Shown here: in pieces, positions 42,219 to 54,892 of the stretch
How the letters are laid out: each line of letters begins with the position of its first letter
How positions within the stretch are numbered: position 1 is the first letter of the stretch
Assembly (NCBI RefSeq): GCF_001457035.1
Contig: NZ_KQ758617.1
Span: forward strand, 1,488,001-1,552,000
Length of the DNA stretch: 64,000 bases
Reading direction: 5' to 3'
Origin: Fictibacillus enclensis
Lineage (GTDB): Bacteria; Bacillota; Bacilli; Bacillales; Fictibacillaceae
Notes under the pieces: generated by a model
Database searches by the model: none
Seen by the model: the letters and a program-made list of their open reading frames with translations, nothing else
What the model was told of the DNA's origin: nothing
Made by a program: the position numbers and the translations under genes

Positions 42219-42336
42219 CAAGGGGCAACTCTTGGCCTTTTCTCTAAACGATATATAAGTATACTGGAGTAATCAACAATTAATATTGATATCAATAAAG
42301 TATAAAAAACCCATCGTAATGATGGGTTTAATCTTT
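42219..42336 (+). terminator. Two terminator-like hairpins after arsC
   Basis: First: GCCAAG / CTTGGC near 42220-42235 followed by CTTTTC. Second: AAACCCATC (42307-42315) / GATGGGTTT (42321-42329) followed by AATCTTTT. The second also faces the convergent sigma-54 regulator gene. Confidence 0.65.
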
Positions 42337-42450
42337 TAAAGCTACTTTCAATAATCCATTCATTACTTGCTTAAAGCATCTTCACCATTTACGCTCATAG
42401 GATTTTTAAAGAATATAAAGATCTTTAACGTGATTAAACTGGGCCATACA

Positions 42451-43797
42451 TCAATTGGTGTGCATATTGAATGTTTTAATTTTCTTCACAAGGGTTGAAT
42501 GGTCTACTCCTAAATAGGCCGCAGCTTTCCTAATAGAGGGCTTCCTCTGTAATGCATCTTCAATTAATCTTTTTTCAAAGAGTTTGACCCGCTGTTTTAA
42601 AGGAAGAATGGATTCAGGATGATTTTGAATCCTGAAGTGAGGCGGGAGGTCAACTGGTTCAATCGTAAGGGAAGGAACCGAAACAATCATGCTTTCCACT
42701 AAATTTCTTAATTCTCTAACATTCCCTGGCCAATGATAATTTTCCAATATGTGAAGCGTATCTTGTGAGATATGCTTCTCGACATTATACAATTTACAGA
42801 AATGAACAAAAAAGTGCTGCAGCAGAGCATGGATATCTTCTGGACGTTCACGCAAAGACGGAACGTTCAATTCTACAACCTGCAAACGATAAAATAGGTC
42901 TTCCCGGAATTTACCTAGTCTGACCAATTCCTTTAGATTTTGATTGGTAGCCGAGATAATTCGAATGTCCAATTGCTTCGTTTTGGTTCCTCCAACTCGC
43001 TGGACTTGCTTCTCTTGGAGTACACGGAGCAATTTGACCTGCAGCGCTAGCGGCAGGTCACCTATTTCATCAAGAAGAACGGTCCCTTTATCCGCCAGTT
43101 CCAACAACCCGATTTTTCCTTCCTGGCGCGCTCCAGTGAACGCGCCCTTTACATGGCCAAACAACTCTGACTCTAATAACGGCTCAGGAATGGCCCCGCA
43201 GTTCACTTTAATAAAAGGCTTATCTTTCCGGTCACTTAATTGATGAAGTAAGTCGGCGATGACTTCTTTTCCTGATCCGGAAGGGCCTAACAATAAAATA
43301 CTTGTAGGGAAGGATGCCACCTGCTCTACTTTTTGAATAACTTCCTTCATTCGGACACTTTCGAAGATCACTTGTTCATCCGAGCCATCTGTCATAAACG
43401 TGTAACGGTTTTGGCTCATTTCTGAAAAACTTTTCGCCTTTGTTAACGCTTTAGTCATCCTATTTAACTGAGTAATATCGCGGACACTTGTCACGACCAT
43501 CTGAATCTCACCAGATTCGTTGAATACGGGATTTCCGGTGACGATCACATCTTTTTGTTGTTTCCCGATTTTCTGCAAAATTGATATCCTCTTTTTAGCA
43601 TCCAATACGAGTAGAGAGACAGACTGATCAAAATATCCTTTCGACATTAACTCACTCATGTGCTTGCCGACTAGCTCCTCTCTTAGGAACCCAGTCATTT
43701 CCTCATAAGCCGAATTAACAAGTAAGGTCTTGCCTTCTTTATTTACCACATAAATACCGTCGGTTGAAAATTCAAGAACCTTTTCTAATTTATCCAT
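42451..43797 (-). CDS. Sigma-54-dependent activator (PAS, AAA+, Fis-type HTH)
   Basis: A 448-residue enhancer-binding protein. Residues 1-110 form a PAS sensor (FSTDGIYVVNKEG, VTSVRDITQLNRM); about 150-390 an AAA+ domain with Walker A GPSGSGKE, sigma-54 contact loop GAFTGA, and LLDEIGDLPL; about 410-448 a DNA-binding helix pair (PSIRKAAAYLGVDHSTLVK). ATG 43797 with AAGGAAGG is chosen; a start at 43860 would lie inside the palindromes. It is divergent from the aldehyde dehydrogenase operon, whose upstream region has four matching palindromes and a -24/-12 promoter, so it is very probably its activator. Confidence 0.92.
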   Translation of the reverse strand: MDKLEKVLEFSTDGIYVVNKEGKTLLVNSAYEEMTGFLREELVGKHMSELMSKGYFDQSVSLLVLDAKKRISILQKIGKQQKDVIVTGNPVFNESGEIQMVVTSVRDITQLNRMTKALTKAKSFSEMSQNRYTFMTDGSDEQVIFESVRMKEVIQKVEQVASFPTSILLLGPSGSGKEVIADLLHQLSDRKDKPFIKVNCGAIPEPLLESELFGHVKGAFTGARQEGKIGLLELADKGTVLLDEIGDLPLALQVKLLRVLQEKQVQRVGGTKTKQLDIRIISATNQNLKELVRLGKFREDLFYRLQVVELNVPSLRERPEDIHALLQHFFVHFCKLYNVEKHISQDTLHILENYHWPGNVRELRNLVESMIVSVPSLTIEPVDLPPHFRIQNHPESILPLKQRVKLFEKRLIEDALQRKPSIRKAAAYLGVDHSTLVKKIKTFNMHTN

Positions 43798-43826
43798 GAT
43801 AAAAAAACCTTCCTTGTTTAAAATAT

Positions 43827-43941
43827 GGTGAAAAACATCACCGGTGGTGAAAAACATCACCGGTGGTGAAAAACATCACCAGCTTTATTATACAACCATT
43901 CGTTCATAATTAGGGTTTTCTGTGGTGAATTTTATCACCAC
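43827..43941. promoter_or_regulatory. Four palindromic upstream activating sites
   Basis: Three identical GGTGAAAAACATCACC copies at 43827-43842, 43846-43861 and 43865-43880 (19-bp period), and a variant GTGGTGAATTTTATCACCAC at 43922-43941. They lie 55-180 bases upstream of the sigma-54 promoter, the usual enhancer distance, and directly upstream of the regulator gene, allowing autoregulation. Confidence 0.88.
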
Positions 43942-43993
43942 ATTAGATTCAACACAGCCTTGCCATCCTACTCAACACCGGCTTTTTTAGTTT

Positions 43994-44009
43994 TGGCATG
44001 GATCTTGCA
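43994..44009 (+). promoter_or_regulatory. Sigma-54 promoter (-24/-12)
   Basis: TGGCATG-GATC-TTGCA. GG and GC are at the canonical distance and only one base of the TGGCAC part of the consensus differs. The start codon of the next gene is 35 bases downstream. Confidence 0.9.
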
Positions 44010-44043
44010 AGTATGTGAAGAAGTGAAAGGAGGGAAGTTCATT

Positions 44044-45471
44044 ATGAATATAAAAGGTTTATTTATCAATGGTGAGTCAGTAATCAAGCAAAGAACCTAC
44101 GATCTCCGGTCTCCATATAACGGAGAATCTATCGCCACGATTAGTATGGCAGATCAAGAAGATGTAAATCGGGCAATCGATGGGGCTCAGGCAGCTTTTG
44201 AAGTAATGAAAGAAATGCATGCCTATCAACGCTCTGAGATCTTGTTAAGGGTTGTGCAAATCTTTGAAGAAAGGAAGGAGGAGTTAGCTCGTGTATTGGT
44301 ACAGGAAGCCGGCAAACCGATTCGCACCGCACGTGGAGAAATCGATCGAACCATTGCTACCTACCAGCTTGCTGCAGAGGAGGCAAAAAGGATTTATGGG
44401 GAGACGATTCCGATGGATGCAGCCCCAGGCGGTGAAAATCGAATCGGGTTTACATGGAGAGAACCATTAGGCGTAGTGGTTGCAATTAGCCCTTTTAACT
44501 TTCCGTTTAATTTGGTCGCCCACAAATTGGGTCCAGCCATCGCTGCAGGAAACACGGTTGTTTTAAAACCTGCTGAACAAACGCCATTAAGTGCATATCT
44601 TACCGCTGAAATTTTTCAGCAGGCTGGACTTCCGAATGGAGCTGTTCAGGTAGTGGCAGGTAGTGGCAGAGAACTCAGTGATGCTTTAATCATGGATCCA
44701 AGAGTCAAGAAAATTACTTTCACAGGCAGTTCTCAAGTAGGTAAAGCAATTAAGGCAAAAGCGGGATTAAGAAAAGTAACATTGGAACTTGGTTCAAATT
44801 CCGGGTTAATTGTCGAACCGGATGTCCCTTTGGAAAAAGTGATTCAGAGATGTGTGGAAGGGGCATTTTCCTTTGCTGGCCAAGTTTGTATTTCACTGCA
44901 ACGCATTTATGTCCATGAATCGATTTATGAGGATTTTAGTAAGCGTTTTATAGAACACACTAAACAATTAAAACTTGGTGACCCGTCGGAAGAAACTACT
45001 GATATAAGTGCCATGATCAGTTCCCAGGAGTTGGAGCGGATCGAATCGTGGGTAACTGAGGCCGTAAAGCAGGGTGCCAAAATTGGCATCGGGGGTGCAA
45101 GGAATGGAACTATTTTTCCACCAACCGTTTTGCTGAACGTCAAACGAGATATGGCAGTTTCATGTCAGGAAACGTTTGCTCCCGTGGTTTCAATCGTGCC
45201 CTATAAGAAACTAGATCAAGCGATTAACATGGTGAACGATTCAGTGTATGGACTCAATGTGGGGATTTATACCCAAAACATTATCAATGCCTTGCATGCG
45301 GCACGTAAGTTGGAGTCGGGCGGCGTGATAATCAATGATATCCCAACCTTTAGGCTCGATCATATGCCTTATGGCGGTGTGAAAGAAAGCGGTTACGGTC
45401 GTGAAGGAATTAAATACGCGGTTGAAGAAATGACCGAATTAAAATTCGTTACAATGAAAACCACTTTTTAA
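44044..45471 (+). CDS. NAD(P)+ aldehyde dehydrogenase
   Basis: A 475-residue aldehyde dehydrogenase with glutamate in LELGSNSGLIVEP, catalytic cysteine in FAGQVCISLQRIY and coenzyme loop FTGSSQVGKAIK. In company with a lactonase and an iron alcohol dehydrogenase it is a candidate succinate-semialdehyde dehydrogenase for gamma-butyrolactone breakdown (BlcA role), though the active-site neighbourhood also resembles lactaldehyde or glyceraldehyde-3-phosphate (GapN-like) enzymes. ATG 44044 follows AAAGGAGGG and is downstream of the sigma-54 start point; the earlier ATG at 43960 is not. Confidence 0.9.
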   Translation: MNIKGLFINGESVIKQRTYDLRSPYNGESIATISMADQEDVNRAIDGAQAAFEVMKEMHAYQRSEILLRVVQIFEERKEELARVLVQEAGKPIRTARGEIDRTIATYQLAAEEAKRIYGETIPMDAAPGGENRIGFTWREPLGVVVAISPFNFPFNLVAHKLGPAIAAGNTVVLKPAEQTPLSAYLTAEIFQQAGLPNGAVQVVAGSGRELSDALIMDPRVKKITFTGSSQVGKAIKAKAGLRKVTLELGSNSGLIVEPDVPLEKVIQRCVEGAFSFAGQVCISLQRIYVHESIYEDFSKRFIEHTKQLKLGDPSEETTDISAMISSQELERIESWVTEAVKQGAKIGIGGARNGTIFPPTVLLNVKRDMAVSCQETFAPVVSIVPYKKLDQAINMVNDSVYGLNVGIYTQNIINALHAARKLESGGVIINDIPTFRLDHMPYGGVKESGYGREGIKYAVEEMTELKFVTMKTTF

Positions 45472-45484
45472 GGGGGAGTACTAC

Positions 45485-46333
45485 ATGACTAATATTATAA
45501 AGCCTAATCCTAAACTTTATGTCCTGGATAACGGTCGGATGAAGATGGATAAAAATTGGATGATCGCCATGCATAACCCGGCAACCATTGACAACCCAAA
45601 TGCACAAACCGAATTTGTTGAGTTCCCGGTTTACACCGTTCTCATTGATCATCCTGAAGGTAAAATCCTTTTTGATACCGCCTGCAACCCGAATTCCATG
45701 GGTCCTGATGGACGGTGGGGACAAGCAACTCAAGCCATGTTTCCGATTTCCATGGGAGAAGAATGTTACCTTCATAACCGTTTGGAACAGCTGAATGTAC
45801 GGCCTGAAGATATAAAGTACGTAGTCGCTTCCCACCTTCATTTAGACCATGCAGGTTGTTTGGAACTGTTTACAAATGCAACGATCATAGTACATGAAGA
45901 CGAGTTGAACGGTACACTCCAATCTTATGCACGCAATCAAAAGGAAGGGGCCTATATTTGGGCAGATATTGATGCGTGGATCAAAAATAACCTTCAGTGG
46001 CGAACAGTAAAACGGAGTGATGACAATCTCCAATTAGCAGAAGGCATCAAGATTTTAAATTTTGGGAGTGGCCATGCCTGGGGCATGATTGGACTTCACA
46101 TCGATATGCCGGAATCGGGCGGAATTATCCTTGCTTCAGATGCGGTCTATACGTCGGAAAGCTTTGGTCCACCGATTAAACCGCCTGGCATCATCTACGA
46201 TTCTCTGGGCTATGCAAATGCGGTTGAAAAAATACGCAGAATTGCTCAAGAAACAAATTCTCAGGTCTGGTTTGGACATGATCCTAATCAATTTAAAGGG
46301 TTTCGTAAATCTACTGAAGGCTATTATGAGTAA
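45485..46333 (+). CDS. Metallo-beta-lactamase-fold lactonase (AttM/AhlD-like)
   Basis: A 282-residue dinuclear-zinc hydrolase of the N-acyl-homoserine-lactone / gamma-butyrolactone lactonase group. Zinc ligands are visible in order: SHLHLDHAG, His in GSGHAWGM, Asp in LASDAVY and His in WFGHDPNQ. The gene lies between the aldehyde dehydrogenase and the alcohol dehydrogenase, as expected for a BlcC (AttM) counterpart that opens gamma-butyrolactone to 4-hydroxybutyrate; quorum quenching could be a side or main activity. GGGGGAG precedes ATG 45485. Confidence 0.88.
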   Translation: MTNIIKPNPKLYVLDNGRMKMDKNWMIAMHNPATIDNPNAQTEFVEFPVYTVLIDHPEGKILFDTACNPNSMGPDGRWGQATQAMFPISMGEECYLHNRLEQLNVRPEDIKYVVASHLHLDHAGCLELFTNATIIVHEDELNGTLQSYARNQKEGAYIWADIDAWIKNNLQWRTVKRSDDNLQLAEGIKILNFGSGHAWGMIGLHIDMPESGGIILASDAVYTSESFGPPIKPPGIIYDSLGYANAVEKIRRIAQETNSQVWFGHDPNQFKGFRKSTEGYYE

Positions 46334-46346
46334 GGGGGAATCTTAA

Positions 46347-47534
46347 ATGAGTTTTGCTAAGCTAGTTTTTGCCCCATTAAGTTATACCGGATGGGGTGCT
46401 TTAGAACAACTATTACCCGAAGTCGAAAAATACGCGCCTAAGAAAATACTGGTGGTCACAGATCCCATGCTTGAAAAAATAGGGTTAGTCGAGTGGGTGA
46501 CTACTCCCCTAAAAGAGAGCGGGTTTCAAGTTACGGTATATACGGATGTGGTACCTGAACCACCTTTAGAAACAGGTGAGAAGCTAGTTTCCTTTGCCCG
46601 AGCAGGCCAATTTGAAATGGTGGTTGGCTTCGGTGGAGGTAGTGCATTGGATTTAGCCAAATTAGCAGCCGTTCTGGCGGAGCATGAAGGATCAGTAGCC
46701 GACTATTTAAACCTCACCGGAACAAAGAAAGTAGAAAAGAAAGGATTGCCCAAAATCCTCATCCCGACAACTTCTGGTACGGGTTCGGAAGTGACAAATA
46801 TATCCGTCTTGTCCTTAGAAACAACAAAAGACGTCGTTACTCACGATTATCTTTTAGCAGATGCTGCCATTGTCGATCCTGAATTAACGGTTTCTGTTCC
46901 AGCGAAAGTCACAGCAGCCACCGGAATTGATGCATTGACCCATGCGGTGGAAGCCTATATTTCGGTTAATGCAAGCCCAGTGACCGATGGTTTAGCCCTT
47001 CAAGCCATTCGTCTCATTGGCCGTTCATTACGAAAGGCCGTTCATAATGGCAATGATAAACAGGCCCGGATCGATATGAGTAATGGGAGCTTTATCGCAG
47101 GACTAGCATTCTTTAATGCCGGGGTAGCGGGTGTTCATGCGTTAGCCTATCCATTGGGCGGTCAATTCCATATTTCCCATGGTGAATCAAACGCGGTATT
47201 ACTGCCCTATGTCATGGGTTATATCCGAAAAAGCTGCACGGCAAAAATGGCGGATATCTTAAACGCGCTCGGGGGCAACTCTAGCTATTTATCTGAGGAA
47301 GACGCCTCTTACAAGTGCGTTGAGGAACTGGAGAGGCTTGTAAAAGAGGTTGGAATTCCATCAACATTAGCAGAGTTTGATATACCTGAATCCGCTTTGG
47401 AACGCCTCACTCAAGACGGGGTCCAGCAAAGACGTATACTGGCCAGAAGCCCTTACCCATTATTGGAGGAGGACATTAGGAACATTTATCAATCTGCTTT
47501 TAACGGTGTTGTCACTGAGCCAACGAAGCGGTAA
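46347..47534 (+). CDS. Iron-containing alcohol dehydrogenase
   Basis: A 395-residue group III alcohol dehydrogenase. Nucleotide loop GFGGGSALDLAKL and TTSGTGSEVT; metal ligands in GIDALTHAVEAY (Asp, His) and HALAYPLGGQFHISHGESNA (two His). In a butyrolactone pathway it would oxidise 4-hydroxybutyrate to succinate semialdehyde (BlcB role). Starts 13 bases after the lactonase stop. No clear terminator follows before the IS relic. Confidence 0.92.
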   Translation: MSFAKLVFAPLSYTGWGALEQLLPEVEKYAPKKILVVTDPMLEKIGLVEWVTTPLKESGFQVTVYTDVVPEPPLETGEKLVSFARAGQFEMVVGFGGGSALDLAKLAAVLAEHEGSVADYLNLTGTKKVEKKGLPKILIPTTSGTGSEVTNISVLSLETTKDVVTHDYLLADAAIVDPELTVSVPAKVTAATGIDALTHAVEAYISVNASPVTDGLALQAIRLIGRSLRKAVHNGNDKQARIDMSNGSFIAGLAFFNAGVAGVHALAYPLGGQFHISHGESNAVLLPYVMGYIRKSCTAKMADILNALGGNSSYLSEEDASYKCVEELERLVKEVGIPSTLAEFDIPESALERLTQDGVQQRRILARSPYPLLEEDIRNIYQSAFNGVVTEPTKR

Positions 47535-47584
47535 ATGAATTCTATTCCATATCAAAAGCCACTGAATGAATAAAAACTCCTTGA

Positions 47585-47775
47585 GGACACTGTAGAGTGA
47601 CCTAATTAAATGAGACAAAGGAAAAAACACCCCCCATGGTCGTAAATACAATTATCGACAAAGTGGAGGTGTTTTTTCTTATGATGAGAAAAAGAAGGTC
47701 TATTCAGGAGAGCTAAAAAGAGAAGTGATTCGTCTAAAATTACCATTTGGGATTAAGAATCGTACGCAAAGCCCT
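47585..47775 (+). mobile_element. IS3-family relic (orfA fragment and probable left end)
   Basis: GTAGAGTGACCTAATTAAAT near 47591 looks like an IS terminal repeat. A hairpin of AAAAAACACC and GGTGTTTTTT arms follows. After ATG at about 47682 the orfA-like sequence VYSGELKREVIRLKL is readable only after a frameshift and soon ends. No orfB or right end is seen. Confidence 0.55.
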
Positions 47776-47797
47776 TGAGAACATTATGTTTGTTTTT

Positions 47798-47825
47798 AGT
47801 TAACATAATATATATTGAAAGGCGT
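47798..47825 (-). repeat. Left dif-like site (XerD arm intact, XerC arm divergent)
   Basis: Read on the + strand: AGTTAACATAA (XerD arm, 47798-47808), TATATA centre, then TTGAAAGGCGT in place of the XerC arm (6 of 11 positions match the arm recalled for B. subtilis dif). Twenty consecutive bases (47797-47816) are identical to the right site at 54513-54532, in the same orientation. Confidence 0.75.
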
Positions 47826-48144
47826 AAAACGTGGAGTTCTACCTCCTTAACAAGTGCATATGTGAAACCTTTTCTAGGTATTTCTCTGCGGTGTTTCTTA
47901 TTTACTTTTTTATTCCGTTACCTACCTTTAGGGAAGGTGATTCTTTTGTGAAATCGGCCCATTAGCTACACTTGTTCAAAAGTTCCCACTTTTTCATTGA
48001 GGGCACTTGAATTGGAATCCTCTCTTTTTTTAGTCTGCTTTAGCATTAATTGTAGCTTTGCTTAACCTTGTTCAACTAACTGGCAGGATTGTGGAACTAA
48101 GAGTTTAATTATGAGTAGTAACTAAAGATTATAATTATAAGGAG
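47826..48144 (+). other. Gene-free stretch inside the left end of the dif-flanked segment
   Basis: AT-rich, no credible ORF, no terminator or recognised repeat. Only the GNAT gene's upstream region (AAGGAG near 48140) is identifiable. Confidence 0.5.
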
Positions 48145-48666
48145 ATGGACGTTATTTCAAAACAAAATGAAGAACGACAAATACAAATTAACATTTGGGA
48201 AGACAAAGACCTTGATCTACTTGTTAAATTAAACGCACCAGAAATGATGGAACATCTCGGAGGGTCTGAAAGTAATGAACAGGTTCTAAAGCGTCATAAA
48301 AGGTATCTTGAACTTGGTGAAAAGGGGAAAGTGTTTAGCATTACCCTAAGTCCTGATTTTGAAGTGGTTGGTTCAGTTGTATATTGGCAATCAACTTGGA
48401 ATAATGAATGTGTTTATGAAATTGGATGGAGCATACTACCACAATTTCAAGGGAAAGGGATAGCAACACATGCCGTTAAACTAGCAATTAATGAAGCAAT
48501 AAAGGAAAGGAAATATCAATACATACATGCTTTCCCTTCGGTTGAAAATCCTGCTTCAAATGCCATTTGTCGAAAGCTCAACTTTTCATTTATATCAGAT
48601 TGCAAATTTGAGTACCCACCAGGTAATTTCATGCATTGTAACAATTGGCGTTTGGACATAAAGTAA
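48145..48666 (+). CDS. GNAT-family N-acetyltransferase
   Basis: A 173-residue GNAT protein of the RimJ/RimL or antibiotic acetyltransferase type. The acetyl-CoA loop is PQFQGKGIATHAV, preceded by the beta-bulge strand YEIGWSILP, and followed by NPASNAICRKLNF, the typical C-terminal helix motif. AAGGAG overlaps the ATG region at 48145 closely, so the true start may be slightly downstream. Acceptor unknown. Confidence 0.85.
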   Translation: MDVISKQNEERQIQINIWEDKDLDLLVKLNAPEMMEHLGGSESNEQVLKRHKRYLELGEKGKVFSITLSPDFEVVGSVVYWQSTWNNECVYEIGWSILPQFQGKGIATHAVKLAINEAIKERKYQYIHAFPSVENPASNAICRKLNFSFISDCKFEYPPGNFMHCNNWRLDIK

Positions 48667-49162
48667 ATCATAATTGGTTTTTCAACAATCGGGTGCTTAT
48701 GTTAAAAATGGGATGGCTGTGGTGAACCCGTTTTTTTAGTGTGCTAACGGGGCAGGTTAGTGCTCTAGCCAGCTAGTTTGGCTTAAAGACCACAAGGGTA
48801 AATAGAGATAGATCTAGATATAGGGGAGCAATTGAAAATGAAATAACAAAGAAAGAGATATATTGTGAAACTCGAACGCAAAAGATCAAATGCGACGGCG
48901 AAGACCTGAAAGACCTTTGGGAGATTGTGATTTCCGGTTTCCGGTCATAAGCCTTACATCAAGGCATTGATTTAGTTAACCATCCATAAGTACACGATAG
49001 AGTTCACGCTTGCCTTATTTACAACAATTTTATAACGAAAAACTATCGATCAACGCGAATTGTTGAACAGGATTTTGGCTCTTCCACGATCTTAATATAA
49101 AAATCCCATGAAGAAGTGATCTGGAAAGTGTGAATACTAATATTATTAAAGGAGGTTCATTT
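48667..49162 (+). other. Gene-free stretch with degenerate repeat motifs
   Basis: No ORF with a ribosome site except the hydrolase start. Contains two members of a degenerate repeat (about 48683-48700, ATCGGGTGCTTATGTTA; about 48744-48765, CTAACGGGGCAGGTTAGT) found again at 50.1 and 51.2-51.5 kb. Confidence 0.45.
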
Positions 49163-49978
49163 ATGCCGTTCATTGATGTAAACGGAACTACGCTTTACTA
49201 CCAGGATACCGGTCTAAAAGATGCACCAGCCTTGGTTTTCAGTCACTCATTATTCTTTAATAGTCGAATGTTTCATAAACAAGTGGAACGGTTTGCTGGT
49301 GAATACAGAGTCATTTGTTATGATCATCGGGGGCAAGGGAAAAGTGCTAAAGATACGTTGGACATGCTTGATTTGGATACATTGACAGAGGATGCGGCAG
49401 CACTTATTAAAGAGCTTGTTTTAGGCCCCTGTCATTTTGTAGGTAACTCTATGGGGGGCTTCATTGCTTTGCGTCTGGCTGCAAGGCATCCAGAACTCCT
49501 TATTACATGTACAGTGCTGGGGACATCCGCTGAAGAAGAATATAAAATAGATGAATTTCAGCCAATTGTTGAGCATCTACAGATTTATGGAGGCAAGCCT
49601 ATGTCCCAAACTTTGATATACATTATGTTTGGAGACACGTCACTTGAAGATCCGTCTTTTGCGAATGAACTCAATTTCTGGAAGGATCACATAGAGGGTT
49701 TGGATCGTACGATTGGCGATGCTGCGTATCAGGTGGTTCATCGCAAACGAATCCTGAGTGAACTAAATGAAGTGGATGTTCCGATGTTGGCGATTGCAGG
49801 AGCTGAAGATCATGCCTATACGGTTGAACAGTCGAATAAAATTGCAGTCACAGTAAGAAATGGTGTGTGTAAAGTCATTGCCAACGCGGGCCATTCTCTG
49901 GCACTTGAAACTCCGGAAGAAGTTAATTCGTTTCTTGCTGAACATATCTGTAATTCCGGTAAGTATTATTCAGAATAA
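49163..49978 (+). CDS. Alpha/beta hydrolase (3-oxoadipate enol-lactonase-like)
   Basis: A 271-residue alpha/beta hydrolase. Oxyanion region FSHSLFFNSRMF, nucleophile elbow GNSMGG (Ser near residue 96), acid in the GAEDHAYT region and catalytic His in NAGHSLALE. The overall plan fits PcaD-like enol-lactone hydrolases or related esterases. ATG 49163 with AAAGGAGG is used instead of 49130. No aromatic-degradation genes are adjacent, so the substrate is open. Confidence 0.88.
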   Translation: MPFIDVNGTTLYYQDTGLKDAPALVFSHSLFFNSRMFHKQVERFAGEYRVICYDHRGQGKSAKDTLDMLDLDTLTEDAAALIKELVLGPCHFVGNSMGGFIALRLAARHPELLITCTVLGTSAEEEYKIDEFQPIVEHLQIYGGKPMSQTLIYIMFGDTSLEDPSFANELNFWKDHIEGLDRTIGDAAYQVVHRKRILSELNEVDVPMLAIAGAEDHAYTVEQSNKIAVTVRNGVCKVIANAGHSLALETPEEVNSFLAEHICNSGKYYSE

Positions 49979-50389
49979 GCATTGCAAAAAAAGGGTTGTT
50001 TTGTGCCTGAATTAAAATATACCTTTAAAACTAGAAATCTCTTTCTTGTTACACACAAAAGATTTTTTAAGATACTGCGGCCATGTTTGGCGGCTTTTTT
50101 CTTTATTGTTCTTTATACTTTCTTAGTTATGGAAGAATTAAAGAGGGTGCGTTAGTTGAAACTAATAGAGGCTGCTAAAGCAGCCTTCCTTAGAAGTATT
50201 TATCGTAGAAATATTGCCTTATTTTTCCACTAAGATGGGCATAGACTTATACAATCATCATGCAATATCTGCCTGCCAAGTCGTTAACCGCAGTTATTTT
50301 TTTCTGTTGTTTATCCTTGATAGACAAGTGTGCTTGCAACCATATATACTTAAAGAAAATATTGACACTTATCTGAGGAGTATTTTTTT
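49979..50389 (+). other. Gene-free stretch with hairpin and repeat motif
   Basis: A repeat member near 50146-50165 (GAGGGTGCGTTAGTTGAA) is followed by GGCTGC TAAA GCAGCC (hairpin, about 50171-50186). GCGGC-containing sequence followed by CTTTTTT near 50079-50102 may terminate the hydrolase transcript. A 66-codon ORF at 50214 lacks a ribosome site and is not called. Confidence 0.4.
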
Positions 50390-51226
50390 ATGGGTTTTGA
50401 AAAGGCAAATCTAATTGAAGAATTCGCACATTTTTTAAGTAAGAAGGCTGAATCAATTAGCAGGGAAATTGTTAATTATAATGTGAGTAAGATAGAAATA
50501 ACATTACCACAAGAAATAATAGATAAATCAATTGATACTAATGCTGAATTTCTTAAGTTTTTGGGGAGTACGCTTAAATTTTCGAATGTAGAGGTTGAAC
50601 CTATATTCATTGAATGGCTCATCAAACAGGAAACACCGGAAGATACTCAATATATTGAAAAAGAGCTATCGAGTCTTATAAAACCTTATGCGGATACAAG
50701 ACAGCTATTAATAAAAATTTTGTCTCAATTATGCATGGACTATGGACTAACTACTGAGGAAGTTATCACTGTAACCAGTAGATTAAGCTATTTTCTCGAT
50801 TTAAGTATTACTGAAACTATTCTTAAGCGAGAGAGAACAACAAAAGAAGCCGAAGAAAAGCAAAACCAGAAGATCACAGAACTATCTTCACCCATAATCC
50901 CTATACAAAATGGTATGGCGGTTCTCCCGATAATTGGAGATATTGATGTAGAAAAAAGTGAATTTATTATGAATAGAGTCATACCCAGAGTCACTGAGTT
51001 GAAAATTGAATGTGTTATTATTGACTTCTCAGCCATTGCCTCTATCGATACCGAAATTGCGGCTCGAATCTTTACAATATATGATGTTCTTAGGTTGTTA
51101 GGAATCAAAGCGGTGTTTACAGGGATTAGAACGGATTTAGTTTCAAAAATTATCAACTCAGGCATCAATTTTTCGAGTATCAAAACTTACGCCACACTTC
51201 AACATGTTTTACAAGATATTAGATAA
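50390..51226 (+). CDS. RsbR-like STAS protein (stressosome co-antagonist)
   Basis: A 278-residue protein with an N-terminal helical, globin-like part of about 155 residues, a linker rich in Glu/Lys/Gln, and a C-terminal STAS domain (about 165-278; MAVLPIIGDIDVEKSEFIM, VIIDFSAIASIDTEIA, GIKAVFTGIRTDLV). That architecture is RsbR-type, structural subunits of the stressosome that controls RsbT and sigma-B. The second phosphorylatable Thr/Ser position (ASIDTEIA) looks retained. No rsbS, rsbT or sigB lies nearby. GAGGAG precedes ATG 50390. Confidence 0.88.
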   Translation: MGFEKANLIEEFAHFLSKKAESISREIVNYNVSKIEITLPQEIIDKSIDTNAEFLKFLGSTLKFSNVEVEPIFIEWLIKQETPEDTQYIEKELSSLIKPYADTRQLLIKILSQLCMDYGLTTEEVITVTSRLSYFLDLSITETILKRERTTKEAEEKQNQKITELSSPIIPIQNGMAVLPIIGDIDVEKSEFIMNRVIPRVTELKIECVIIDFSAIASIDTEIAARIFTIYDVLRLLGIKAVFTGIRTDLVSKIINSGINFSSIKTYATLQHVLQDIR

Positions 51227-51547
51227 TTGGTTCCTCTATGATGGGGAAGTTAGTTAAAAAGCAGCCGAGTCAGTGCGAACCAAAATCATAGGTGACTCGT
51301 ATTACTCAAACAGCATATAGAACATCAAAGGATCGCTGCGGCGGTTCTTTTCTTTTGCGACCCGGAAGTTATTAGGCACTTCTAGAGCTGTGAATTTTTT
51401 TCAGGTTTTATTAAAGTGGGAGTATATCTTATTAAGCTAACGGGTGCGTTACTTTAAGAACTTCAGCTGACATTACAGGCGGCTTTTCTTATTGAGATAC
51501 AGGACAGGTTAGTTGAAGAAGGAAATAAACTTTAAAAAGGAGAATAT
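51227..51547 (+). other. Gene-free stretch with three repeat members
   Basis: Repeat members near 51243 (GGGGAAGTTAGTTAAA), 51438 (CTAACGGGTGCGTTACTT) and 51503 (CAGGACAGGTTAGTTGAAG). GGCGGTTCTTTTCTTTT near 51340 is terminator-like. No ORF of note. Confidence 0.4.
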
Positions 51548-51787
51548 TTGGAACTTAGACCTATTAAGTACCTTATGCTTTTCAAAGAGGATGATGATTA
51601 TGAAGAAACAGAAGAAGATCTTGATATTTCTAAAACAATAACTACTTTTCTGCTTTTAATGATGTTTATACTGTCATCTACTAAAATGATTCATGATTAT
51701 CTCAGTGCAGCTGTCATAATAATTATTTTAGTTGTCTTCTTTTATAAGAAGAAACAATTAGAAAAAAAGGACTCTAATCATATTTAA
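51548..51787 (+). CDS. Small membrane protein (79 aa)
   Basis: TTG 51548 follows AAAAAGGAG. The 79-residue protein has an acidic N-terminal part (EDDDYEETEEDLD), two adjacent hydrophobic segments (ITTFLLLMMFILSS and AAVIIIILVVFFY) and a lysine-rich end: a two-helix hairpin with charged flanks. No family recognised. It is followed 73 bases later by the aaRS-like gene on the same strand. Confidence 0.6.
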   Translation: MELRPIKYLMLFKEDDDYEETEEDLDISKTITTFLLLMMFILSSTKMIHDYLSAAVIIIILVVFFYKKKQLEKKDSNHI

Positions 51788-51860
51788 GCATAGTAATCGG
51801 AACGTCCCATATTTGGAGCGATTTTTGCCTTTAAACACTTGAAGTAAAGGGGGTACCGCA

Positions 51861-52790
51861 ATGGAGTCAGATCCATCATATATTCTTGAGCGAATTGTTA
51901 AAGAACTGGGTGTGGAACAGATCGTTGAATTACTGGCTGATCGAATACCAGAAACAGATTTATACACGCTCTTACTTTATGTTTTTCGAGAGAAGACCCA
52001 AAGGTTAGTTCCCAGCGAATTACTTAAAAGGTACCAGGCAAACCGTTCGGTGCATCCTGCTTCAGTTGATCCTATCCAGTTAAAGCAACTAGAACTAGAT
52101 ATTTTGAAAATAGCAAGCAACCATTTCGCTACACCAGTTCAGTTATCTCCCGTGGCTCCTTTAGGATCTTGTTCTGTTGTAGCGACAGTCGATCAAAATA
52201 AAGTGCTTTCTGCAATCAGAGGAACTGAAGTAGTGTCAGACGCGACCAACCTTCTAGCTTTGCATATTAGCGATTTGTTAAAATCACGCAAAAAGAGCAA
52301 CAGGGAGGACTATATCCGCTTATGCACAACCCATCGACATGTTAGAACTCAATATTTCAATAATCCTGGAATGTTTCCACATTTTCATCTGTTCTGTATG
52401 GTCACTTCTGGTACAGATACAGGTTCTTATCAGTTCGAAAAGCAATCATTTTGGGAGCACATTACCGTGTACCAAGATATATTCCAATCATTGTTCCAAT
52501 CAGATATTGAGGTTATCCTAAGTGGCCGTGATGGTTATAAAGATTCCGAAGGGTTGCTGCGGAGAGTTGCACAGCTTGGGAAACGGTTTTCGATTAAAGT
52601 ATCAATAAAGGAGCCTAATTTAGAAAATCAGTATTATAAAGGTTTACAATTTACTGTCATCACGAAGATAAACGGAGAAGAACATAACATTGGTGATGGT
52701 GGATTCGTCGATTGGTCACAAAAATTATTGGGAAGTAAAAAACAACGGTTGATTATTAGTGCCATAGGCTTAGATAGGCTACTTTTGTAA
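51861..52790 (+). CDS. Orphan class-II aminoacyl-tRNA-synthetase-like protein
   Basis: A 309-residue protein I place by motif reading near class II synthetase paralogues. After an N-terminal helical part (about 1-95) comes APLGSCSVVATVDQNKVLS (about 99-118), then a motif-2-like strand pair THRHVRTQYFNNPGMFPHFH (about 157-176) with the Arg-x-x-x-F pattern and following loop, a GDGGFVDW stretch (about 278-285) and a motif-3-like ending SAIGLDRLL. It has no tRNA anticodon domain and is far shorter than real synthetases. Free-standing members of such groups modify proteins or act as regulators (for example HisZ, PoxA), so aminoacyl-adenylate chemistry is possible. GGGGG precedes ATG 51861. Confidence 0.6.
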   Translation: MESDPSYILERIVKELGVEQIVELLADRIPETDLYTLLLYVFREKTQRLVPSELLKRYQANRSVHPASVDPIQLKQLELDILKIASNHFATPVQLSPVAPLGSCSVVATVDQNKVLSAIRGTEVVSDATNLLALHISDLLKSRKKSNREDYIRLCTTHRHVRTQYFNNPGMFPHFHLFCMVTSGTDTGSYQFEKQSFWEHITVYQDIFQSLFQSDIEVILSGRDGYKDSEGLLRRVAQLGKRFSIKVSIKEPNLENQYYKGLQFTVITKINGEEHNIGDGGFVDWSQKLLGSKKQRLIISAIGLDRLLL

Positions 52791-52895
52791 ATTGGTTATT
52801 ACAGTACAGAGGATCAACTAAAGCACTGCTTCGTTTCTATATTTTCGGGTGTTTTACTTGAAAAAATATTTCAACTATTAAGCACACAGGAATCT

Positions 52896-52937
52896 AATAA
52901 TTAGAAAGCAACCTGTTGTGGTTGCTTTCTAATTATT
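52896..52937. terminator. Strong bidirectional terminator
   Basis: Perfect 18-bp inverted repeat beginning AATAATTAGAAAGCAACC with a 6-nt loop, between the aaRS-like gene (+) and the two small genes (-). Confidence 0.9.
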
Positions 52938-52979
52938 ATTCTTGATTGTCTGCTGTTTTTGATTCTATGTTAGATCTGT

Positions 52980-53072
52980 CTATTGACTTTGTATATTTTT
53001 CTTGGTTACCAGATTAGTCTGCATCTGTTCGGGTATTCCATTTACTATATTTAAATGTGTTTTTATTGGCAT
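52980..53072 (-). CDS. 30-aa peptide with strong ribosome site
   Basis: ATG 53072 follows TTGGAGGTGG at ideal spacing; the peptide (MPIKTHLNIVNG, then VTKKNIQSQ) is polar. It lies 26 bases after the stop of the 63-residue gene on the same strand and before a strong terminator. No family recognised. Confidence 0.45.
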   Translation of the reverse strand: MPIKTHLNIVNGIPEQMQTNLVTKKNIQSQ

Positions 53073-53098
53073 TATTAATCCACCTCCAATAATTAATT

Positions 53099-53290
53099 TC
53101 AAAATTCCTGTCCTTCTTTCGATTCTAGAAACGAATCGATTGATTCATCCAATAATCTTTCCCGATTAGGGTCTTCATTAATATCTGAATCCATTTCCAT
53201 TTCTTGTTTAAATATGCCGTATGTATCATCTTCTTTATTTAGATTACTATGTTGGACTGGTTTAGTTCGATTATTTTTTTGATGTGTCAT
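53099..53290 (-). CDS. Small acidic protein (63 aa)
   Basis: ATG 53290 follows AGAAGGAG. The 63-residue protein is highly charged with a basic start (MTHQKNNRTKP) and acidic rest (NEDPNRERLLDESIDSFLE), probably disordered in part. It resembles in style small Bacillus spore or stress proteins, but no specific family is recognised. First of two small genes ending at the 52896 terminator. Confidence 0.55.
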   Translation of the reverse strand: MTHQKNNRTKPVQHSNLNKEDDTYGIFKQEMEMDSDINEDPNRERLLDESIDSFLESKEGQEF

Positions 53291-53539
53291 GTAATCTCCT
53301 TCTATAACAAGTATTTTAATTTAGTATGAACAATTGATCTAATATAATCCAATTCTTTTTAAATCAAGCATTAAAAGAGGTAGCATGGCGATAATGTTTA
53401 TAAGATGTAGAAGAAATTTTTTATAAAAATGGTACAATTAAAGGTTTAAAAGTAATCAATTATCACCATTTGGTGACAGCAAAAGCATTGTAGCAGAAAA
53501 GGCCTTGCGAGACAGGACAGAATTCATCGCAGCTCCACC

Positions 53540-54083
53540 AGATGCCCTGTGCATTTCTGTGCCTTTAATATTCTGTATCATGAAGGTGAATCTGTGATGA
53601 TCTTCCCTTGTTAGAAAGGAAAAAGTTATTGGATTCAGTTGTTAACGAAAGTGAGTGTCTAACGCAAATCCGTTGGATGAAAGGCAAAGGAATTGAGTTG
53701 TTTTCACTTTGCCAGGACAATGGGCTAGAAGGAATTGTCTTAAAGAAGGCAAGTTCCAAATATCAAATCGATTACCGCTCTCCAGCATGGATAAAAGTCA
53801 TCAATTATCAATATGAAGACGTATTTGTCATTGGTTATCGTAAGAAGGAGTTTGGTTGGATACTTGGTAAGATTATAGACGGTAAAATGAAAATAGTGGG
53901 GTTACTGAGTTTGTGCCGCATGTAGCACGAAAGGAATTTAATCAAACGATCGATGGTTTGGTTTTGAATGAAACAGAAAACGTTGTCTATCTGAAGCCAA
54001 CTGTACGATGTACCGTCAAGTACATAAACTATACGAAGGCAGGAATGTTGCGTATGCCTGTTTTTGTGAAGTTTATAGACTAG
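53540..54083 (+). pseudogene. Second ATP-dependent DNA ligase, multiply frameshifted
   Basis: Readable pieces follow the ligase order in different frames: PVHFCAFNILYHEGESVM (about 53546-53599), then after a one-base shift DLPLLERKKLLDSV through NGLEGIVLKKASS (motif IV) and PAWIKVINYQYEDVFVIGY (motif V region), then after a shift near 53905 TEFVPHVARKEFNQ and the OB-fold end VRCTVKYINYTKAGMLRMPV. The N-terminal KxDG region is gone or unrecognisable. It is not a copy of the intact ligase at 2767; the sequences differ throughout. Confidence 0.85.
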
Positions 54084-54100
54084 AAATTTGAACTAAACTT

Positions 54101-54130
54101 AGACTGCTCTTAAGGGCAGTCTTTGTTTTT
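54101..54130 (+). terminator. Terminator of the ligase relic
   Basis: AGACTGC / GCAGTCT stem with 8-nt loop followed by TTGTTTTT. Confidence 0.75.
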
Positions 54131-54334
54131 GAACCTCCTTATATCCCTCCAATTGGGGATTGGACAACCGTGTTCAACTAACAAGTCACAGAGCTCAACG
54201 GAACGATCATGTTTGATCAAAAACTCCGCATAGAGCTTGAGATCAAATGCGTAACTTTTTAAGGTATTCGGCGAGTAATTTTTCTCCACGTGCAAATACA
54301 TGAGAAAGTCATCAGTAGCTTGTTGAATGTTCAA
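54110..54334 (-). pseudogene. Tyrosine recombinase, N-terminal fragment
   Basis: TTG 54334 with CGGAGGTCG upstream begins a frame whose first 50 residues form the SAM-like DNA-binding domain of tyrosine recombinases (ATDDFLMYLHVEKNYSPNTL, then SYAFDLKLYAEFL). After ELCDL the sequence leaves the family and runs into the ligase terminator. The catalytic domain (R-H-R-Y residues) is missing. It lies 180 bases from the dif site and points away from it. Confidence 0.75.
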
Positions 54335-54513
54335 TAAAATCGACCTCCGGAAGATAAATTTCATTATGGAACGGTCCCGTAAGTTATGAGACGGCCGTGT
54401 GAGTTATCGGGTCGACACACAATATTATCGTAAACTTGGGCGGTGGAAGTACCGGATATGAGATGTTATAGGAACTTGAGGGAAGAAACTTATGGTACGT
54501 TTGTGTTTTTTCT

Positions 54514-54541
54514 AGTTAACATAATATATATTCTAGGAAGC
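54514..54541 (-). other. dif chromosome-resolution site
   Basis: Read on the + strand: AGTTAACATAA (XerD arm), TATATA (centre), TTCTAGGAAGC (XerC arm). Against the B. subtilis dif sequence as I remember it, 26 of 28 positions agree. XerC/XerD homologues (CodV/RipX) would resolve chromosome dimers here. Confidence 0.88.
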
Positions 54542-54892
54542 TATGTAGAAGAAGTTGATTTCTGTATCAATTGATAAGTTTTCTTGGTATAATGAGACGA
54601 AATTAAAAATTTCATTGATCAGTCACCCGTTGTTAAAAAACTAATATTATACAAATTTATAAAGAAGGAATTTAAAATTGAAGAATATATCCTGCTTATT
54701 TTTGCCTCCATTGTTATTCTGAGTACTGTTGGACACCAGCCAAAAGGCGGTTTCAAAGATCCTCGTGAAAAATCACGAACAAAATCTTTTCATCCTCGGG
54801 ATTCACAACCGCCAACAACTGGTATGTAATATATAAATCTCCATCTCATCAATGAAATCTCCGAAAGCTCTTCCGGGTATGAATGCACACTT
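54542..54892 (+). other. Spacer right of dif with a startless small membrane ORF
   Basis: A frame ending at TAA 54827-54829 encodes EEYILLIFASIVILSTVG followed by a charged tail (about 50 residues), like a one-helix membrane peptide. The only in-frame initiation triplet behind AAGGA is ATT at 54677, so translation is doubtful. Nothing else seen. Confidence 0.3.

Follow-up and report, generated by a model that had tools for sequence, protein, structure and literature searches.

We analyzed a window of 64,000 nucleotides from the genome of Fictibacillus enclensis (4.5 Mb in 10 contigs; contig NZ_KQ758617.1, positions 1,488,001 to 1,552,000, here G000:C1:1488001-1552000, where G, C, and L stand for genomes, contigs, and loci). 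This window carries the chromosomal dif site at one end of a segment (47798-54541) that we regard, with a probability of roughly 0.8, as the decayed remains of an integrative element docked in dif, whichever recombinase catalyzed its insertion. The comparison with relatives puts the segment in a broader context: we think it fairly probable that Bacilli host a family of mobile phage-defense islands that encode their own, third Xer-like recombinase, dock in dif, where chromosome dimers are resolved, and rebuild the site, such that successive islands stack without harming chromosome segregation. The anatomy of the islands, the linkage of the recombinase gene to dif, and the junctions in the dif core are demonstrated by comparing the sequences of relatives. 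The segment of the window is most likely a decayed member of this family, stacked on another remnant. The islands of the relatives are similar to integrative mobile elements exploiting Xer (IMEX), and no published description of such dif-linked recombinase islands was found in the open-licence PubMed Central (PMC) full-text literature searched.

Two dif-type sites in the window

The site on the right scores 46.8 out of 47.3 in a matrix of dif sites and is a full dif (Table 1). The GC skew lies between +0.04 and +0.11 in the five stretches to its left and is -0.12 to its right, i.e., its sign flips at the dif of 54514-54541. SpoIIIE recognition octamers, which were meant to orient the terminus, have no occurrence in the window. 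The site on the left scores 25.4, and its XerC arm keeps 5 of the 11 dif bases. A preliminary description of this DNA had reported a 20-base direct repeat in one orientation, with XerD arm and center intact in both sites, a divergent, inward-facing XerC arm in the left one, and a canonical XerC arm in the right one. All of this holds: positions 47797-47816 and 54513-54532 are identical at 20 out of 20 bases in the same orientation, and none of 100 shuffles gave such a repeat. Hereafter, we call the left site a half-site.

The site is AT-rich, which could favor a similarity by chance. Yet, the 19-mer formed by XerD arm and center is present in two copies in the window, even when 2 mismatches are allowed, and in 0 of 100 dinucleotide shuffles. 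When the whole genome is searched with at most one mismatch, it has two matches, both in the window (the same pattern read backwards, as a control, has one), and it matches once per genome in each of the six congeners G001-G006. Chance similarity was rejected on the shuffles and, with two copies genome-wide, appears extremely improbable.

Pieces of 54183-54611 that flank the right site to the left and to the right have matches in the dif regions of the congeners G004, G005, and G006. The matches inside the site exist because these genomes have the same element end, whose recombinase gene is intact in G005 and present as a broken copy in the window, G004, and G006. We thus rejected the idea that this inner sequence is a plain native neighbor of dif: what the congeners share inside the right site is the near end of the element. 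This near end being common to the window and its congeners, the insertion in the window probably predates the species. In G001, G002, and G003, no dif-linked recombinase gene was found in the 1.5 kb next to dif. A different tyrosine recombinase (26% identical) is encoded in G001:C20, on the XerC side and 491-1588 bp from dif (L032/L033).

In G005, the counterpart of window positions 42319-47591 (94% identity) sits inverted across dif, a rearrangement over the terminus. This inversion and the repeat beside the left site could suggest that the latter is the leftover of a duplication or rearrangement of dif in which no element took part, and the empty-site comparisons all concern the loci of relatives. 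The anatomy, orientation, and outer flank of the half-site nevertheless fit the element family described below, and an origin without an element seems unlikely.

A recombinase gene linked to dif

Over its residues 11-61, the open reading frame (ORF) at 54110-54364 (minus strand) shares 78% identity with the intact recombinase encoded next to dif in G005. The tyrosine recombinase relic that had been noticed here is thus real; what had been missed is its role as the dif-linked recombinase of the clade, whose gene we call int. We searched for its homologues in 100 relatives (E<=1e-70), 397 genomes of the order (E<=1e-62), and 398 genomes of the class (E<=1e-90). They were found in 2 relatives (G005 and G008), 12 genomes of the order (13 places), and 7 genomes of the class (7 places). 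In 17 of the 22 places (12, plus 5 at class level), a full dif of the same orientation is located upstream of int, with the gene on its XerD side, at a distance of about 120-215 bp by our own count. The second int copy of G341 (L062) has a half-site upstream in place of the full dif. At L055 (G257) and L284 (G617), several TTTGTGTC-bearing repeats upstream of int replace dif, and the near end of G617 seems interrupted. At L061 (G390) and L286 (G752), a partial dif-like site with reversed arms is found by int, and these are possibly insertions in the opposite sense.

In the phylogenetic tree, the Int proteins form a clade with 100/100 support, separate from their hosts' XerC and XerD. A search of solved structures gave an XerD entry (1a0p) as the best match, and the Int proteins of L041 and L066 (221-249 bits) miss the NCBIfam cut-offs for XerC and XerD (330-335 bits). 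The full-length members show the arginine box, GKG-K-ER, HHLRH, LGH, and YTH, which are the usual catalytic motifs of tyrosine recombinases. A scan of named genomes revealed at least three clear members of the family among the matches listed, and a close copy of the G294 protein is encoded by Geobacillus thermodenitrificans DSM 465. Int has no match of at least 60% identity in 50,697 phage records (best among the matches listed: 34.7%) or in 72,556 plasmid records (none above 35% among the matches listed), and its matches in viral_contigs reach at most 38%, over a part of the protein. Given the lack of close relatives in these three collections, a phage or plasmid origin was set aside; phage structural genes had no systematic search.

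A recombinase tied to dif across genera is reminiscent of XerS/difSL and XerH/difH, where, in the relevant passages of PMC5357621 and PMC9765430, an Xer-family recombinase gene lies beside its own dif and a single recombinase resolves dimers. By analogy, int might encode a dif-linked dimer-resolution recombinase, with islands accumulating at the terminus by other means. In contrast to these systems, the hosts studied here also have XerC and XerD, and int is patchy (12/397 and 7/398 genomes), with several copies broken. Furthermore, the Int of G363 groups in the tree with the Int of G238 rather than with the one of the congeneric G264, and the junctions described below lie in the dif core. We find a housekeeping role of this type very improbable.

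The repeat motifs near 54.4 kb in the window turned out to be conserved motifs of the near end. Of 15 near ends, 14 have ATAA at +44 to +46 from the XerD arm, and 14 have it at +84 to +87. In the stretch that separates the XerD arm from int, KTNCNATAA has 25 forward copies and a single reverse copy, relative to a shuffle mean of 1.1 and a maximum of 7 in 300 rounds, and these shuffles overstate independence since the near ends are partly related by descent. The motif resembles the XerC arm (ACTTCCTATAA), and the near-end ATAA motifs may act as accessory half-sites. KTNCNATAA is present at +38/+39 by 8 of the 31 dif-type sites of the window genome and its relatives, and three of these 8 (G035, G042, and G044) are in families outside the main set. 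The G044 site (L012) has an int fragment with 95% identity to the G008 int, and there is none within 1.5 kb of those of G035 (L005) and G042 (L009). A similar motif was seen by eye 11-12 bp inside the degenerate arm in 4 of 8 far ends.

Islands, empty sites, and stacking in relatives

We scanned the XerD side of dif over 20-60 kb (1.5 kb in G008, up to the contig end; five class-level genomes lie outside the scan). The dif sites of G294 and G264 themselves contributed to the matrix used for half-sites, empty sites, and class-level genomes, and the matrix of the first dif scan was built without these two and with the dif of G005 and G008. Half-sites with an intact XerD arm and center, a degenerate XerC arm, and the orientation of dif are present in G341, G363, G294, G209, and G234, as in the window. 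They lie 36.2 and 40.7 kb from dif in G341 (the second having one changed base in its XerD arm), 39.4 kb in G363, 31.2 kb in G294, 41.1 kb in G209, 28.7 kb in G234, and 6.7 kb in the window. The islands of these five relatives thus span 28.7-41.1 kb from dif to half-site. The half-site of G008 is on another contig. A far half-site was found in 7 of the 15 scanned genomes having int or its relic at dif. When the dif of the host has an unusual center, the half-site repeats it: TAAATA in G363 and TTTATA in G294.

The cargo of the islands was scanned on chosen ORFs: 10 of 21 with PADLOC in G341, 3-7 in each of the other islands, and others with Pfam or NCBIfam. PADLOC identified BrxA, BrxB, BrxC, PglX, DrmD, and LmuB in G341, type I restriction and methylation enzymes in G363, G294, and G209, a type I restriction enzyme in G234, and LmuA/LmuB-like proteins in G209. 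Hence, 5 of the 5 fuller islands carry defense genes, of bacteriophage exclusion (BREX) type or for type I restriction, among these chosen ORFs. All five also encode a second tyrosine recombinase (Pfam), homologous in all ten pairs at 25-41% identity, and G341, G234, and G209 encode a small resolvase (Pfam). The G209 island has an actin-like protein of the kind that serves in plasmid partition.

The comparison with empty sites, which the preliminary description had proposed, is informative in the relatives. G338, a congener of G209, has a single dif and no half-site in the 20 kb that were fetched. Its sequence matches G209 on the XerC side through dif (86% over 1051 bp) and on the outer side of the half-site from the center on (79% over 100 bp), and neither inner end of the island is matched. 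The same holds for G055 and G209 (71% over 629 bp and 84% over 62 bp, with inner ends unmatched). Between G045 and G294 there is a match on either side (77% over 189 bp and 91% over 85 bp), and G242 matches G363 from the center outward (83% over 483 bp). Judging from these alignments, the insertion point in the relatives is the dif core, most clearly in G209 when compared with G338.

The sequences outside the far half-sites were also compared with near ends. The outer flanks of G294 (97% over 496 bp) and of the first half-site of G341 (90.5% over 528 bp) match the near end of the very same genome, that of G363 matches the near end of G264 (67% over 406 bp), and that of G008 matches the near end of the window (92.5% over 40 bp). 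In G234 there are only short near-end matches of 30-46 bp, and at E 1e-3 there is no near-end match for G209, the second half-site of G341, and the window. The search with the outer flank of G341 gave scattered matches, one of which, at the dif of G440, has 37 bp. Far flanks are thus often the near end of another element, which demonstrates, at the level of sequence, the stacking of islands in the relatives. As for the window, an ungapped alignment of the 28 bases outside its half-site gives 22 identities with the near end of G238 and 20 with those of G363, G380, and G345. The same flank of the int-less congeners gives 13, 13, and 9, and the best other dif flank gives 17. Among 179,919 background positions, at least 19 matches occur at a single one, which is the near end of G363 itself.

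Proposed integration at dif and contents of the segment

From the fuller islands, we propose an attachment site (attP) with the structure (degenerate XerC' arm)-(center)-(XerD arm)-(accessory motifs)-int. A circular intermediate would recombine with the chromosomal dif at the common center, the presumed catalyst being Int, a third, Xer-like tyrosine recombinase. The product would be (host XerC arm)-center-(element XerD arm)-int ... cargo ... (XerC' arm)-center-(host XerD arm), with dif restored at the int end and a half-site left at the far end. Since dif would be rebuilt at the int end, dimer resolution could be retained after the insertion, and the next element could insert and stack. In the window, we infer that the two sites bound one element.

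These islands share insertion at dif with IMEX such as the gonococcal genomic island (GGI), TLC-phi, and LME-1, the dif junction being found in the relatives and the window being read by its anatomy. They also share the arrangement of the ends, one having a whole dif and the other a dif mimic, found both in the window and in the relatives; insertion of GGI and LME-1 (Legionella) yields one end with a wild-type dif and another with a modified dif, in the passages of PMC5357621 and PMC9765430 devoted to them. However, IMEX use the host Xer, whereas the islands of the relatives encode an Xer-like recombinase beside dif. As far as PMC5357621 describes them in those passages, the divergence of the GGI and TLC-phi sites affects the XerD arm and spares the XerC arm, and here we observe the reverse. 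Finally, the cargo is here mainly phage defense and the hosts are Bacilli, while the Xer-exploiting elements in the same passages of PMC5357621 and PMC9765430 are from Proteobacteria.

The preliminary description had proposed that the segment was inserted by Xer recombination at dif. The insertion is borne out by the anatomy of the window and the empty-site junctions of the relatives, but the role of int had been overlooked and, since the kin of the segment encode their own dif-linked Xer-like recombinase, the use of the host Xer is one of two options. The host XerC and XerD, both present in 12 of 12 hosts checked (labels by similarity), could integrate the elements as they do for the known IMEX, which rely on host enzymes in the passages cited above (PMC5357621, PMC9765430), and int would then serve another role. 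The intact XerD arm and center of the half-sites are in line with this. Against it, the terminal gene next to the attachment site is int in 17 of the 22 places and its full-length members retain the recombinase motifs, the XerC' arms are unlike the host XerC arm, and the described TLC-phi and GGI sites diverge on the XerD side instead (PMC5357621). For an element docked in dif, catalysis by the host enzymes thus seems possible but rather doubtful, and we favor integration by Int.

Acinetobacter pdif modules and the IS1202-family elements targeting dif are similar in that accessory genes or insertion sequences lie at dif-like sites, and the available summaries of them do not mention a dif-linked tyrosine recombinase of their own. 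The Helicobacter TnPZ with XerT is reportedly a mobile island that encodes a recombinase of the Xer family and does not insert at dif.

Several observations weigh against the existence of such a family or against the place of the window in it. Eight of the 15 scanned genomes have no far half-site within the 20-60 kb (G005, G264, G238, G380, G345, G322, G004, and G006), and four of the 22 int places (L055, L061, L284, and L286) have neither dif nor half-site where expected. The tree carries a long-branch warning between Int and XerD. Among the empty sites, the match of G242 is short on the XerC side (38-79 bp), G045 also aligns with part of the G294 near end (78% over 58 bp) and with 22 bp before the far arm, and the far-side match for G234 is weak, with 19-24 bp. 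For the window, congener matches to the half-site with a little flank span only 29-34 bp, and the empty-site evidence comes from the islands of the relatives. The 28-bp match outside the half-site is short, and BLAST of this outer flank at E 1e-3 found no near end of the family. PADLOC recognized no defense gene in 9 ORFs of the window segment, no second tyrosine recombinase was recognized in its ORFs by Pfam, NCBIfam (on parts), or PADLOC, and no far-end ATAA motif was seen by eye. We tentatively read the missing defense cargo and second recombinase as decay or replacement. Finally, the interior pieces 47839-48092 and 51511-51863 are found near the dif of G006, where there is no half-site, and the segment may therefore be composite. 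We see the 6.7-kb segment of the preliminary description as a decayed and perhaps composite element that probably sits on a second remnant.

If our reading is true, such islands of Bacilli, with a dif-linked recombinase of their own, would account for the mobility of BREX-type and type I restriction systems and for their accumulation at the terminus. The family would differ from the known IMEX in the degenerate arm and possibly in the source of the enzyme. The question of how dif can be occupied by an element while dimer resolution goes on would then become directly testable in laboratory strains.

The features of the segment and its borders are given in Table 1. The GC content of the segment is 36.4%, compared with 41.8-46.3% in its surroundings. 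Positions 53505-54092 are 88% identical to G002 DNA located about 4 kb away from the dif of that genome. The 153-bp repeat just beyond the left half-site may have severed an older element.

Table 1. Features of the dif-associated segment and its borders (window coordinates).
Feature	Position	Strand	Remarks
Complete chromosomal dif	54514..54541	-	XerC arm, TATATA center, and XerD arm; XerD arm towards the segment; GC-skew switch
Far half-site	47798..47825	-	XerD arm and center as in dif; XerC arm degenerate, inward-facing
Near-end motif 1 (AGTTCCTATAA)	54466..54476	-	ATAA at +45 from the XerD arm; putative accessory half-site
Near-end motif 2 (GTTTACGATAA)	54425..54435	-	ATAA at +86; putative role as above
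Relic of the dif-linked Xer-like recombinase	54110..54364	-	About 50 N-terminal residues; homology at 54182-54334
GNAT acetyltransferase ORF	48145..48666	+	Inside the segment
Alpha/beta hydrolase ORF	49166..49978	+	3-oxoadipate enol-lactonase-like, under the family cut-off
STAS-domain ORF	50390..51226	+	
309-aa ORF	51861..52790	+	No family reaches the cut-off
ATP-dependent DNA ligase fragments	53608..54083	+	Broken
153-bp repeat	47593..47745	.	94% identity to C1:2024175-2024325; by eye, start of an insertion sequence
Probable near-end remnant of another, stacked element	47770..47797	-	Outside the half-site; short match

Some dif-type sites of other genomes depart from the common form. The dif of G003 has an altered XerD arm (TTATGTCTACT), as has that of G034. 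A G003:C1 ORF (L023/L036) ends about 25 bp from this dif (225894), on the XerD side, and its first 140 residues match a LAGLIDADG-like domain (E 7e-6). A second dif-like site with both arms and an altered center is found at G046:C2:35532 (L102), in a contig of 115 kb that is perhaps another replicon.

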